Of a DNA stretch of 64,000 bases, positions 45,881-50,946 are shown one piece after another (within the stretch, counting starts at the first letter, position 1; each line of letters starts with the position of its first letter). A model generated the notes under the pieces. That model searched no databases. It was not told the origin of the DNA and saw nothing but the letters and a program-made list of their open reading frames with translations. This DNA is from Clostridia bacterium (GTDB lineage: Bacteria; Bacillota; Clostridia; Christensenellales; Aristaeellaceae): contig JAFROK010000031.1 in the NCBI GenBank assembly GCA_017429695.1, positions 124,001 to 188,000 of the forward strand, written 5' to 3'. The translations under genes were made by a program, and so were the position numbers.

Positions 45881-46732
45881 GTGAGCAAGAAGGGTAAGAA
45901 TTACAACGGAAAGTCCGGCGGCGCCGGCTTTCTCGTAACGCTGGGAATCGCGTTTCTGCTTTTCCGGAGTGTTCCGGCCATTGTGGTCGGCGTCGTCATC
46001 GGCGCCGGTGTGGCCGCCGTCACCGGCATTATGGGCAGCAAGCTCGATACCACAACACATAACAAGCGCGACATGGAACGCGAAAAGCAGGAAGAAGAAA
46101 AGCGCCGCCAGGAAGAAGAGAAAAAGCGCCGCGAAGCCGCTTCCCGCATTCCCCTGACCGGGGATGAAACCGCCGATAATGTCATCATCAAGGGACAGGA
46201 AATGCTCAACACCATCCGCACGGAGAACGCCCTGATCCCGGATCAGACCCTTTCCGCCCAGATGGATACGCTGGCCGAAAAATGCACCCAGATTTTTCAG
46301 ACGGTTTCCGAATCCCCGTCCAAAGCGCCCCAGGTGCGTAAGTTCATGAACTACTACCTGCCGACGACGCTGAAAATGCTGGCCAATTACCGCACCATGC
46401 AGCAGCGCGGCGTGTCCTACCAGGAAATGAACCAGGCCCGCGAAACCGCCGTCCGGGGAATGAACATGGTGCTGACCGCCTGCCAGAAGCAGATTGACAA
46501 CCTGCATAAGGAAAACATGCTGGATATCTCCACCGATATCGATGTCATGGAACAGATGCTCAAGCGCGACGGCTACACCGAAAACGAGATCACCGGCAAC
46601 AAAGGCATGACAACCGCCCGCACGGCGGCGGAAGCCCAGATGCGCACATCATCCGCCCCTGTCATGGACTTCCCTGTGGAAGATGGAACGTCCTCGTCTG
46701 CTTCCTCTTCCGCGCGGCATGAATATCAATAA
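45881..46732 (+). CDS. XpaC-like membrane protein (5-bromo-4-chloroindolyl phosphate hydrolysis family)
   Basis: The 283-residue protein has two short N-terminal hydrophobic segments (FLVTLGIAFLLF, AIVVGVVIGAGVAAV, about residues 16-50), a very charged Lys/Glu coiled stretch and a helical C-terminal domain (about 95-250: KFMNYYLPTTLKMLANY). This matches the XpaC family, whose members often precede a TelA gene. The biochemical role is not known. The start is GTG, with GAGGAG 8-9 bases before it. telA starts 23 bases downstream. Confidence 0.82.
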   Translation: MSKKGKNYNGKSGGAGFLVTLGIAFLLFRSVPAIVVGVVIGAGVAAVTGIMGSKLDTTTHNKRDMEREKQEEEKRRQEEEKKRREAASRIPLTGDETADNVIIKGQEMLNTIRTENALIPDQTLSAQMDTLAEKCTQIFQTVSESPSKAPQVRKFMNYYLPTTLKMLANYRTMQQRGVSYQEMNQARETAVRGMNMVLTACQKQIDNLHKENMLDISTDIDVMEQMLKRDGYTENEITGNKGMTTARTAAEAQMRTSSAPVMDFPVEDGTSSSASSSARHEYQ

Positions 46733-46755
46733 TCTTATCAAGGAGGATCAATCAA

Positions 46756-47919
46756 ATGTCTGAATCCGGACCGATTCTTCAGCTTGCAACTGCGCCTGTT
46801 GCTCCCGAACCCGAAGCTCCCGCGGCGGAGACTTCCAGCATCCAGCAGGCCCCCGAAGAAGAAAAAGCCGCCGGTGGCCCCATGCTCGATGAGAGCCAGC
46901 TGACAGAAGCCGAGAAAAAAGCCATTGACGATTTCATTGAAAAAGTGGATGTCACCAATCCTGATCATGTGCTCCTCTTCGGCGCGGATGCCCAGAAGCG
47001 GATTGCGGATTTTTCCCAGACCGCGCTGGACGCCGTTAAAACCCAGGATACCGGCGAAGTCGGCAACATGCTGGTCAGCCTTGTTTCCGAGCTGAAGGGG
47101 TTCCAGCGGGATACTGAGGAGCCGAAGGGCCTGGCCAAGCTCTTTGCGAAGGGCGAAGACAAGATCACCAAAATGAAAGCCCGTTACAATAAAGTCTCCA
47201 CCAATGTGGACTCCATTGCCGGCTCCCTCGAATCATACCAGACCCAGCTGCTCAAGGATGTCGCCATGTTTGACCGCCTGTACGATCAGAACAACGACTA
47301 TTTCCACCAGCTGACGCTCTACATTATCGCCGGCGAAAAGAAGCTGGCCCAGGTCCGGAGCACCGAGCTCAAAGCGCTGCAGGAAAAGGCAGCCCAGAGC
47401 GGAGACGCGATGGACGCCCAGAAGGCCAACGACCTTGCCGCCCAGTGTGACCGTTTCGAGAAAAAGCTCTACGACCTGAAGCTGACCCGCCAGGTCGCCA
47501 TCCAGATGGCGCCCCAGATCCGGCTGCTCCAGAACAACGACAGCCTCCTGGTGGAACGGATCCAGTCCACGCTGTCCAATACGCTCCCCCTCTGGAAAAG
47601 CCAGATGGTCCTGGCCCTCGGTATGCATCATTCCCAGCAGGCCCTTCAGGCGCAGACCGCTGTCACCAACATGACCAACGAGCTGCTGAAGAAGAACGCC
47701 GAAGCCCTGAAAATCGGCACCATCGCCACCGCCCGCGAAGCGGAGCGCGGCATCATTGATATCGAAACCCTGGTGCAGACCAACCAGGACCTGATCGACA
47801 CCATCAACGAAGTGGTGAATATCCAGTCCCAGGGACGCGCCAAGCGCTTGGAGGCTGAAAAGCAACTGTACAACATGGAAGCGGAGCTCAAGAAAAAGCT
47901 GCTCTCCACCAGTCTCTGA
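46756..47919 (+). CDS. TelA-like toxic-anion resistance protein
   Basis: The 387-residue protein is almost wholly helical and belongs to the TelA family, linked to resistance to tellurite and other toxic anions and to some antibiotics. Family segments include LFGADAQKRIADFSQTALD (about residue 72), NVDSIAGSLESYQTQLLKD, QIRLLQNNDSLLVERIQS and ETLVQTNQDLIDTINEV. No membrane helix or signal is present. The mechanism is unknown. An AAGGAGG site lies before the ATG. It forms an operon with xpaC, a common pair, and ends before a T-poor hairpin at 47936-47961. Confidence 0.88.
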   Translation: MSESGPILQLATAPVAPEPEAPAAETSSIQQAPEEEKAAGGPMLDESQLTEAEKKAIDDFIEKVDVTNPDHVLLFGADAQKRIADFSQTALDAVKTQDTGEVGNMLVSLVSELKGFQRDTEEPKGLAKLFAKGEDKITKMKARYNKVSTNVDSIAGSLESYQTQLLKDVAMFDRLYDQNNDYFHQLTLYIIAGEKKLAQVRSTELKALQEKAAQSGDAMDAQKANDLAAQCDRFEKKLYDLKLTRQVAIQMAPQIRLLQNNDSLLVERIQSTLSNTLPLWKSQMVLALGMHHSQQALQAQTAVTNMTNELLKKNAEALKIGTIATAREAERGIIDIETLVQTNQDLIDTINEVVNIQSQGRAKRLEAEKQLYNMEAELKKKLLSTSL

Positions 47920-47935
47920 TTCTGTTCCTTTTCGC

Positions 47936-47961
47936 GGCCCGGCAACGGATTCTGCCGGGCC
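47936..47961 (+). terminator. GC-rich hairpin after telA with weak T-tract
   Basis: GGCCCGGCA (47936-47944) pairs with TGCCGGGCC (47953-47961). The following GATACTTTCATTTTT is not a continuous T-run, so termination may be partial. Confidence 0.4.
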
Positions 47962-47987
47962 GATACTTTCATTTTTGAGGTGGTTTC

Positions 47988-49439
47988 ATGCGCGTGATTG
48001 GTCTGACCGGCAGCATCGCCTGCGGCAAATCAACCATCAGCACATATCTGGTTTCCTGCGGCTTTCCGGTGGTGGACGGGGATCAGCTTTCCCGTGACCT
48101 GACCGCCCCCGGCAGTCCCGTGCTGGAAGAAATCCGGAAAAACTTCGGGGACCGCTACATCAATGAAAACGGCAACCTGAACCGGCGCGCCCTGGGGCAG
48201 CTGGTTTTCCGGGATGAGCATGCCCGGAGCCGGCTGGATGCTGTTATGGCGCCGCACCTGAAACGCCTCACAACCGAACTGATCGAACATTATCGTTCCG
48301 AAGGCGCGGCGCTCTGCTTCCTGGATATGCCGCTGCTGTTCGAAAAAGGCTATGACGCCCTGTGTGATGTGGTCTGGACGGTATGGCTTCCCGAAGATTT
48401 ACAGCTTTCCCGGCTGATGGCCAGGGACAGTTTTTCCGAGGAGGATGCCTTAAGGCGGATCCGGTCTGTCATGTCTTCGGACGAAAAAGCCCGGCGGGCG
48501 GATCACGTCATAGATAATTCCGGTTCTGTCCGCAGCACGCTGGATGCGGTGGACCGCCTGCTGGAAGCGGAACTGAATCCCGCCATCGCTGTCGAACCCC
48601 CGCCCGTACAGCCCGTACAGGCACAGGAACCCCTCCGCCGTTCCGCTCCTGTTCCCGTCCCTGCCCCTCCCCAGCAGCCGGATGTTCCCCCTGCCGCGCC
48701 TGAGGTCATGGAAAGGCCCGCCGCTGCGCGTCGTCAGCCTTCCTCCCGCAAAGCGGAATGGAAAACCCCGCTGTGGATGAAAATCTCCCTGATTGCCGTA
48801 TCCATGCTGCTTGCCTGCAGTATTGTGGCTTACTGGATGATGTCCGGATACCTGGCCGGCCAGGAAAAAAAGCATGCGGACGAGCAGGCCGCCGTGAATG
48901 CGTATTATCATTTTGCGGATTATGAAACCACCTACCGCCCCATCGTGGAAAAATATGCGGCGGAATTCAATCTCAATCCGGCCTTTGTCTGCGCGGTCAT
49001 CCGGGCGGAAAGCTCTTTCAGGCCGGGCGTCAGTTCCGGCGCGTCCGCCCGGGGGCTGATGCAGCTCCGGGAAGGCACCGCGTCCGACCGGGCCCGGGAT
49101 CTCGGAATTCAGGATTTCACGTTTGATATGGTGTATGATCCGGAGGTGAACATCCGTCTCGGGTGCTGCCATCTGCGATACCTGATCCGAAGGTTCGGCG
49201 ACTACCTTCCGACCGTCATCAGCGCATACAACGCCGGGGAAGGCACGGTAAAAAGCTGGCTGGCCGGCAGCGCGGCCGGCAGCGACGGCCGGACCATCGT
49301 CGCGGACCGTATCCCGTATGACGATACACGAGATTATGTGAGAAAGGTGACAGAATACTATGGCGTATATCAGAAAGAGTTCTATTCGGTTGCTTTGCCT
49401 GATACTGATGCTGCCTCTGGTGACCGTCCTGCCATGTAG
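47988..49439 (+). CDS. coaE: Dephospho-CoA kinase fused to a membrane-anchored lytic transglycosylase
   Basis: One frame of 483 residues joins two normally separate proteins. Residues 1-195 are CoaE: P-loop GLTGSIACGKST, substrate Asp in VVDGDQLSRDL, FLDMPLLFE and the RADHVIDNSG segment, all intact, so it should phosphorylate dephospho-CoA in the last step of CoA synthesis. Residues 200-260 are a Pro/Ala-rich, basic linker, followed by a membrane helix (264-286) and an SLT domain (about 310-465) with the catalytic Glu341 in IRAESSF, GLMQL and SAYNAGEG. The basic flank predicts a cytoplasmic kinase and an external peptidoglycan-cutting domain. A GAGGTGG site precedes the ATG. The last 80 bases overlap the next gene. 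No stop or good internal ribosome site separates the halves. Confidence 0.9.
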   Translation: MRVIGLTGSIACGKSTISTYLVSCGFPVVDGDQLSRDLTAPGSPVLEEIRKNFGDRYINENGNLNRRALGQLVFRDEHARSRLDAVMAPHLKRLTTELIEHYRSEGAALCFLDMPLLFEKGYDALCDVVWTVWLPEDLQLSRLMARDSFSEEDALRRIRSVMSSDEKARRADHVIDNSGSVRSTLDAVDRLLEAELNPAIAVEPPPVQPVQAQEPLRRSAPVPVPAPPQQPDVPPAAPEVMERPAAARRQPSSRKAEWKTPLWMKISLIAVSMLLACSIVAYWMMSGYLAGQEKKHADEQAAVNAYYHFADYETTYRPIVEKYAAEFNLNPAFVCAVIRAESSFRPGVSSGASARGLMQLREGTASDRARDLGIQDFTFDMVYDPEVNIRLGCCHLRYLIRRFGDYLPTVISAYNAGEGTVKSWLAGSAAGSDGRTIVADRIPYDDTRDYVRKVTEYYGVYQKEFYSVALPDTDAASGDRPAM

Positions 49440-50946
49440 TCATGTGTTCGCCGCCGACATCCCGGAAAACATGGTTTTCGGCATGCAAAGCACGAAAACC
49501 GTGTTGATTCGTCCTTTCGAACCGGTGGAACGCGATATACTGCCCATATACAACCTGGTCTATGAAAGTCTGGTTACAATCGATGATGACTACAATCCGA
49601 GAGGGTGCCTGGCGGAAAGCTGGGAATGCTCCTCCGACGGAAAGCTCTGGACCTTCCACCTCCGCACGGATGTTTTCTTCTCGGACGGCACGCCGCTGAC
49701 CGCCCGGGATGTGGTGGCTTCCGCCAACTATATCCTGGATAAAGCCAAGGATGAAAACATCACCGATCATGGTTTTTACAGCAACCTGAAATATTTCATT
49801 TCTTCCATTTCCGCCAAGGACGACAGTACGGTCACCGTCAAAGCCGCGCGCCGTTATTACGGCCTGCTTTATGCCATGACCTTCCCGGTGGTTCCCGAAT
49901 CCATGGTCCAGGCGGACAATCCCCTCGGCACCGGTCCCTATCTCATCGGCGAATTCCATGCCGGGCAGCAGATGTGGCTGACCGCCAATACCCGATGGTG
50001 GAAAGCGCAGCCGAAAGTCCGGGATATCAGCTTCCTTTTCCATACAACAGCCAGGTCCCTCGTTGAAAGCTATGAATACGCCCAGATCGACGCGGCCTAT
50101 ACGCGTTCCATTGCCGGCGCCCAGTACAAAACCGGCACTTCGTCCATTACCATGAGCTTCCGCACCAACCAGCTGGAATGCCTCCTGATGAACAATTCCT
50201 CCTCCGAGCTGACCCCGGAAGTCCGCAAAGCGATCCGCTTCCTGATTGACCGGAATAAAATCATCACAAACGTCTACTCCGGCATGGCGAAGGAAACCAA
50301 CTTCCCTTTCTATCCCGGCACCTGGATGTACAACAGCGCGCTGGATGACCAGTTCTACCGGGATGTGGATGAAGCGAAGCGCCTGCTTGCCGAAGCCGGG
50401 TGGGAGGATTCGGATGAAAATAACATCCTGGACCGCATCAACAGCAAAGGCGAGCTCCGGAACCTGAGCCTCCGTTTCTATTATTACGAAGAGCCGGACA
50501 ATGACGTCCGGGCCGAAGCGGTCAACCAGATCGTTGAGTCGCTGGCGGAAGTCGGGATCGCCTGCCGGGTGGAGGCGATGACGATGGCCAATATGAAATC
50601 CAAGCTGGAAGCCGGTTCCTACGACCTTGCGCTGGCATCCTTTGCCATGGATGTCTGCCCGGATCCCGGGTTTATGCTCATGTCGGACAACGTCCGGGTC
50701 GGCAACTATTCCAGGTACCGCAACGACCGGATGGATGAACTGTGCAAATCCCTCCGTACCCAGGTGACCCAGGACGGTTTCCGCCAGGACCTGATGCGGA
50801 TTCAGGAGCGCATTTACCAGGACTGCCCCTTCGTCTGCCTCTACTGGCGGATGGGAAATGTTATTACAAGAAATATGTATACCACCTGCCGCGATGTCCG
50901 CGAATATGAAGTGCTCCGGGGCATTGAATCCTACGCTGTCCAGTAA
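49360..50946 (+). CDS. ABC transporter substrate-binding protein, SBP_bac_5 (peptide/nickel type)
   Basis: The 528-residue product has a signal peptide (MAYIRKSSIRLLCLILMLPL, cleavage near VFAAD) and a family 5 substrate-binding fold: NLVYESLVTIDDDYNPRGCLAESW, FHLRTDVFFSDGTPLTARDV, GTGPYLIGEF and VRKAIRFLIDR. It would bind peptides or a similar ligand outside the membrane. There is no clear lipobox (the Cys context is VLPC), so it may be released or held in another way. No permease or ATPase genes lie next to it. Its start lies inside the end of the coaE fusion gene, in another frame, with AAAGGTGA upstream; starting later would remove the signal peptide. Confidence 0.88.
   Translation: MAYIRKSSIRLLCLILMLPLVTVLPCSHVFAADIPENMVFGMQSTKTVLIRPFEPVERDILPIYNLVYESLVTIDDDYNPRGCLAESWECSSDGKLWTFHLRTDVFFSDGTPLTARDVVASANYILDKAKDENITDHGFYSNLKYFISSISAKDDSTVTVKAARRYYGLLYAMTFPVVPESMVQADNPLGTGPYLIGEFHAGQQMWLTANTRWWKAQPKVRDISFLFHTTARSLVESYEYAQIDAAYTRSIAGAQYKTGTSSITMSFRTNQLECLLMNNSSSELTPEVRKAIRFLIDRNKIITNVYSGMAKETNFPFYPGTWMYNSALDDQFYRDVDEAKRLLAEAGWEDSDENNILDRINSKGELRNLSLRFYYYEEPDNDVRAEAVNQIVESLAEVGIACRVEAMTMANMKSKLEAGSYDLALASFAMDVCPDPGFMLMSDNVRVGNYSRYRNDRMDELCKSLRTQVTQDGFRQDLMRIQERIYQDCPFVCLYWRMGNVITRNMYTTCRDVREYEVLRGIESYAVQ

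Follow-up and report, generated by a model that had tools for sequence, protein, structure and literature searches.

The fused gene and its neighbours

The window, a stretch of 64,000 nucleotides from a Clostridia bacterium (GCA_017429695.1, contig JAFROK010000031.1, positions 124,001 to 188,000), carries at 47988–49439 on its plus strand an open frame in which a dephospho-CoA kinase (CoaE) domain is followed by a linker, a predicted membrane helix, and a lytic transglycosylase (SLT) domain. A first, sequence-only reading of the window had described the frame as uninterrupted, and translation gives 483 amino acids with a sole, terminal stop. The features of the locus are listed below with their coordinates, strand, and basis.

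46756..47919, plus strand: telA, upstream gene (Pfam; synteny)
47977..47982, plus strand: Shine-Dalgarno (SD)-like GAGGTG preceding the ATG (sequence and SD scan)
47988..49439, plus strand: coaE-slt fusion gene, 483 amino acids (open frame; full-length relatives in the genus)
47994..48530, plus strand: dephospho-CoA kinase domain, PF01121, residues 3–181 (Pfam; alignments with solved CoaE)
48573..48776, plus strand: basic Pro-rich linker, residues about 196–263 (alignment, tails of sister genes, no in-frame stop)
48783..48839, plus strand: predicted single membrane helix, residues 266–284 (hydropathy and charge bias)
48945..49274, plus strand: SLT lytic transglycosylase domain, PF01464, residues 320–429 (Pfam; Slt70 alignment)
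49008..49010, plus strand: Glu341 codon (aligned with residue 478 of Slt70; invariant in alignment A1)
49360..50946, plus strand: sbp, downstream gene for an SBP_bac_5 substrate-binding protein (Pfam; conserved overlap)

The gene belongs to a block, xpaC-telA-coaE-slt-sbp-prmA-rsmE-mtaB, whose genes are named partly after their Pfam matches, and which is conserved, whole or in part, in species with fused and with separate genes. A consensus scan of 46600–49700 found no promoter-like sites (0.9 expected by chance) and no terminator-like sites on the plus strand, so that coaE-slt may be transcribed as a member of the block.

The sbp gene begins within coaE-slt and overlaps its 3′ end by 80 nt (49360–49439), being read in the +1 frame. 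Its SD-like site and ATG fall within the codons of an RVTRDYG-type motif of the SLT domain, and its signal-peptide-like start overprints the variable C-terminal tail of that domain. A long out-of-frame open frame over the slt end is present, whether the genes are fused or not, in 33 of 33 loci of the window's genus and in 114 of the 120 family loci described below; it was found in none of five added loci, and in the other named records it occurs in all 15 fused loci and 26 of the 56 separate ones.

The kinase and transglycosylase domains

The kinase domain (residues 3–181) scores 188.3 bits in Pfam against a cut-off of 27 (E 1.3e-55) and passes the CoaE equivalog model TIGR00152 (164.1 bits, cut-off 65.55). 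It aligns nearly end to end with the solved CoaE sequences 2if2, 1uf9, 2f6r, and 1jjv. Motifs were compared in 40 fused proteins (33 from the genus of the window, four from genus g48, one from g32, and two from named records). With patterns chosen in part from the alignment, the GxxxxGK[ST] P-loop, D[GAS]D, and PLL[FYL]E were each found in all 40 of them, and R[LA]..RD, a less strict pattern for the lid, in 38.

The SLT domain (residues 320–429) scores 81.3 bits against a cut-off of 21.3 (E 5e-23). The claim that one frame holds a complete CoaE and a complete SLT is thus upheld by Pfam, both domains lying far over cut-off. The SLT part aligns over 148 residues with Escherichia coli Slt70 (1qsa), and Glu341, singled out from the sequence at the outset, falls on residue 478, which we take to be the catalytic Glu. 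All 35 fused proteins aligned in A1 have Glu341, the GLMQ and AY[HN]AG motifs occur in 40 of 40 fused proteins, and in the window SLT this Glu stands in an ES motif. The model of the flagellar assembly lytic transglycosylase BB0259 reached 137.3 bits against a cut-off of 234, through the C-terminal part of the model only. Ten NCBIfam models matched the protein, none of them spanning both domains, and a single-protein scan of the genome contigs returned 91 pattern matches and no relatives.

The SLT part of the window protein (48945–49388) diverges from its genus, with a mean identity of 44% to the other 32 proteins, whose own means are 63–71%; its CoaE part is ordinary within the genus (62% identity). 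In a tree of SLT domains the window SLT falls outside its genus and adjoins genus g44, and a constraint placing it within its own genus was not rejected (AU p 0.49). The divergence may reflect fast evolution or replacement by another SLT.

Linker, membrane helix, and predicted topology

Between the domains, the Pro-rich basic linker and the single membrane helix of the sequence-only reading were both recovered from composition, hydropathy, and charge. Pro makes up 26% of the linker, residues 266–284 form one hydrophobic stretch of 19 residues with a mean hydropathy of 2.13, and the net charge is +5 in the 20 residues N-terminal of the helix and −1 in the 15 residues C-terminal of it. This charge bias favours the orientation proposed at first, with the kinase inside and the transglycosylase outside, and it fits an N-in/C-out topology in the window protein and in the genus. 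The four g48 fused proteins do not share it: three show no such bias or the opposite one, and the fourth has a bias of nil.

N-terminal of the helix, the genus linkers measure 50–96 residues, with 23 lengths among 33 proteins. An RR-type motif near the linker start is present in 27 of the 33 and an R[PS] motif near the helix in 31, and a fuller RR..RY-type motif occurs in eight of the 40 fused proteins. The RR-type motif is also found in the tails of 31 of 34 standalone SLTs from the nearest genera. Across the 40 fused linkers (4596 codons) there is by definition of the fused class no in-frame stop, and the same codons hold 154 stops in the +1 frame and 86 in the +2 frame. For the genus the stop-free linker does not follow from how the class was chosen, because no genus genome has a separate CoaE.

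Occurrence in the genus

The fused protein matched 33 of 45 genomes of the window's genus, whose members are gut bacteria, 30 of them by a single full-length match in an open frame and three (G003, G034, G042) by two matches within one open frame each; in open-frame analysis all 33 read as fused. A CoaE over the Pfam cut-off is present in 33 of the 45, one in each and always in the fused frame, and an unfused CoaE over the cut-off in none. In the remaining 12 genomes (completeness 54–85%), neither a match to the fused protein nor a CoaE over the cut-off was found. All 13 genomes with a completeness of 90% or more and a contamination of 5% or less carry the fusion. As candidates for a second CoaE in the genus, just four weak partial matches appeared, all under the cut-off (G000, G006, G020, G024). 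Unfused coaE and SLT genes throughout the near relatives had been named at the outset as a pattern that would refute the fusion; instead, 33 of 33 genomes have the fused frame.

In 14 genomes, eight of them from the genus, PF01464 has exactly one match each, which in all eight genus genomes is the fused frame, and all 14 have coaD as a gene of its own. Each of the eight genus genomes also has one member of MltG/YceG (PF02618), so the fused SLT is not their sole transglycosylase.

It is scarcely conceivable that an assembly or sequencing error deleted a stop between two real genes. The window genome is 88% complete and in 60 contigs, and those fused relatives that have record titles are metagenome-assembled or uncultured, which would leave some room for error; the frame is, however, common to all 33 genus genomes with CoaE, which rules out this account for the genus as a whole. 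The 31 genus proteins compared with the window protein in A1 (G034 being left out) are 44–57% identical to it and have many linker lengths, and four fused relatives (G001, G002, G020, G031) come from assemblies of one or two contigs.

Separate neighbours and the lost slt start

The sister genera have coaE and slt side by side as two genes. In the family, 124 loci (44 + 80) were scored, taken from the best matches listed and biased to strong ones. Four loci, all of genus g38, were dropped; the remaining 120 comprise 38 fusions and 82 cases of neighbouring, unfused coaE and slt, in agreement with the neighbourhood that the first reading described for some clostridia. In the stretches examined around the dropped loci (L168, L172, L176, L178), no SLT lies on the coaE strand; that of L172 ends at a contig end. 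Among the best 80 of 541 loci in named records, 76 have a downstream SLT, 17 fused and 59 separate, and many of these duplicate family loci, so that the two sets are not independent. Separate coaE-slt neighbours are also present in Paenibacillus species.

In 16 of 17 loci of the sister genus g25, slt has a start with 5–8 matching SD bases, 13–20 nt past the coaE stop. The standalone SLT of this genus has a basic Pro-rich tail before its helix, with motifs such as RRADRYKQ and VMERPKAPARR. The fused linker resembles this tail and is therefore probably the former cytoplasmic tail of a standalone SLT. In three g44 loci (L153, L161, L163), the standalone SLT has a zinc-ribbon-like CPxC...CPxC stretch before the basic tail and helix, which suggests that the cytoplasmic tail of SLT may pick up different domains.

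The fusion would then have formed by in-frame joining of adjacent coaE and slt, the SLT already having its cytoplasmic tail and membrane anchor. The origin first put forward, the loss of a stop between neighbours, thus stands as regards the joining of neighbouring genes, but loss of one stop alone is not enough, since slt has also lost its start and ribosome-binding site. An SD match of at least six bases before an in-frame start was found in one of 40 fused genes (G160 of g48, near the CoaE end) vs 53 of 85 separate slt genes. In-frame starts with four to six SD bases, in the linker or the last 20 CoaE codons, occur in 25 of the 40 fused genes. The window has none with four or more in this region, and the earlier remark that no usable internal start is seen holds by this SD measure.

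These counts bear on whether one frame gives two products, with proteolysis or internal initiation (e.g., at Met241 or Met264) freeing a soluble CoaE and a short anchored SLT, which we consider unlikely; the fusion would then be one of genes and not of function. The long Pro-rich linker might be protease-sensitive, the weak starts of the 25 genes could be used, and a CoaE freed inside would suffice for CoA synthesis. Of the 33 genus linkers, 16 have a Met ahead of the juxtamembrane R[PS] motif and 17 lack one there, and the standalone tails of g25 hold a like motif (VMERP) deep inside, well past the SD-bearing start. Internal initiation is further opposed by the loss of the strong SD match in 39 of 40 fused genes, common as it is before separate slt genes, and by the linker starts of the window, all of which have fewer than four matching SD bases.

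Recurrence of the fusion

A tree was built from 125 loci with both domains, namely the 120 family loci, L057, L058, and three Paenibacillus or Bacillaceae records. The 33 genus proteins form one clade with a support of 99, and at least two further lineages of the family have fused forms. The fused state requires at least five changes on the tree, four of them forced by the starred branches, and these counts do not separate gain from loss. A single clade of all 40 fused proteins was rejected (AU p 6.8e-6). When the four g48 fused proteins, which include one long branch, were constrained to a single clade, p was 0.027, and the g32-type fused proteins (L037, L057, L058) are split from separate ones by a branch with a support of only 75. 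The ancestral state was presumably separate, because of the outgroup and the wide spread of separate neighbours. On these sequence comparisons, the adjoining genes seem to have fused on more than one occasion.

Genus g48 is mixed, four of its seven scored loci being fused (G091, G160, G178, G193) and three separate (G141, G215, G224). Holding both states, it is suited to observing gain or loss of the fusion. Fusions were also sought in other families of the order, in a draw of 151 genomes that contained no g48 or g32 genome. At 1e-20, 132 of them had a match, and among the matches listed single full-length ones were found only in three genomes of the window's genus. Five long frames (G276, G278, G303, G377, G408) considered as fusions were all separate genes on inspection.

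Selection on the fused gene

Computed for ten fused-gene pairs, with some genes used in more than one pair, dN/dS ranges from 0.04 to 0.11 for CoaE and from 0.04 to 0.12 for SLT, and strong purifying selection acts on both domains. The interdomain stretch including the helix has values of 0.06–0.36 in the nine computable pairs, and the linker N-terminal of the helix 0.14–0.37 in five pairs. The linker before the helix is thus more weakly constrained and may be a mere spacer.

It is very improbable that one domain is a dead remnant retained as a membrane or folding partner. The UPF0157 domain of Mycobacterium tuberculosis is described as having a folding role for CoaE (PMC2765170), and the divergence of the window SLT from the other 32 would be in keeping with decay; but the motif residues of both domains are kept in 40 of 40 fused proteins, purifying selection is about equal on the two, and no second CoaE over the cut-off was found in the genus.

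A probable membrane-tethered CoA kinase

The product is very likely one bifunctional N-in/C-out type II membrane protein, with CoaE and SLT in one chain. The N-terminal CoaE would phosphorylate dephospho-CoA in the cytosol, the flexible basic Pro-rich arm and the single helix would anchor the protein, and the C-terminal SLT would cleave peptidoglycan outside. We infer from motifs, charge bias, and start sites that both domains are active, that the orientation is as drawn, and that the chain stays uncleaved. CoA kinase and transglycosylase would then be made 1:1, and CoA synthesis would be kept at the membrane. The fusion is the only CoaE over the cut-off in the genus and, in the eight genomes tested, the sole PF01464 SLT, so that CoA synthesis would depend on a membrane-tethered enzyme. 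The only CoaE found in the genus thus shares one chain, predicted to span the membrane, with a wall hydrolase, and the fusion would show whether membrane-tethered CoA synthesis is cost-free.

The simplest account of the benefit is that there is none, the joining of neighbouring enzymes being tolerated. Given the repeated occurrence, a mild advantage of dosage or localisation is thinkable. The fusions of other lineages serve as natural replicates, which may point to a functional link of neighbours from unrelated pathways or to mere tolerance of fusion. We find it rather improbable that the fusion was repeatedly selected because CoaE and SLT act as a unit in which the state of the inner domain governs the place or time of wall cleavage outside; if true, this would be a direct protein link between central cofactor supply and wall turnover. 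The corresponding mechanism, in which the nucleotide or CoA state of CoaE controls the outer transglycosylase through linker and helix or through CoaE oligomers, is likewise rather improbable. It would agree with coaE and slt being neighbours or fused in 120 of 124 family loci, with the fused state having changed more than once, and with the basic juxtamembrane R[PS] motif of 31 of 33 genus linkers. Against it, the linker varies in sequence and length (50–96 residues before the helix), and the block holds genes of unrelated function (e.g., prmA and rsmE), so that shared expression alone could account for the neighbourhood.

Comparison with known systems

The standalone SLT beside coaE, known from the same bacterial family, Paenibacillus, and others, shares with the window protein the SLT family, the kind of anchor, and the neighbour; it is, however, a separate gene with its own start and usually a ribosome-binding site. 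The catalytic domain of E. coli Slt70 (1qsa) shares the 148-residue alignment, Glu included. Unlike the window SLT, the large periplasmic Slt70 is soluble and has neither an anchor nor a kinase. Ordinary CoaE (PF01121, TIGR00152) is a short soluble protein, usually regarded as a housekeeping enzyme. The window protein has the same complete domain, over the curated cut-offs, but here the kinase is the N-terminal portion of a predicted membrane protein.

We know of no precedent for the pair of CoaE and SLT. The sequence-only reading was not aware of a described fused form either, in agreement with the open PMC full-text literature searched, where no listed title or start of an abstract describes a CoaE-SLT fusion.

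Mycobacterial CoaE carries a C-terminal UPF0157 domain described as needed for folding (PMC2765170). In this CoaE-UPF0157/GrpB protein (PRK03333), as in the window protein, CoaE comes first and an extra C-terminal domain follows, according to the same source (PMC2765170); the partner in the window is a helix and SLT, not UPF0157. The PRK03333 model reached 151.5 bits against a cut-off of 215, and only its positions 2–196 of 395, the CoaE part, were matched. In human CoA synthase, the N-terminal part is described as targeting the mitochondrial outer membrane, and phospholipids as activating the enzyme (PMC2765170). Eukaryotic CoA synthase (CoaD-CoaE), as described, resembles the window protein in having CoaE at a membrane within a multidomain protein, but its partner is the preceding enzyme of the pathway and its targeting is by an N-terminal domain, whereas the window kinase would reach the membrane by a helix that leads to an enzyme outside. 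The human and mycobacterial cases are thus precedents for, respectively, a membrane-located CoaE and a CoaE joined to a further domain.
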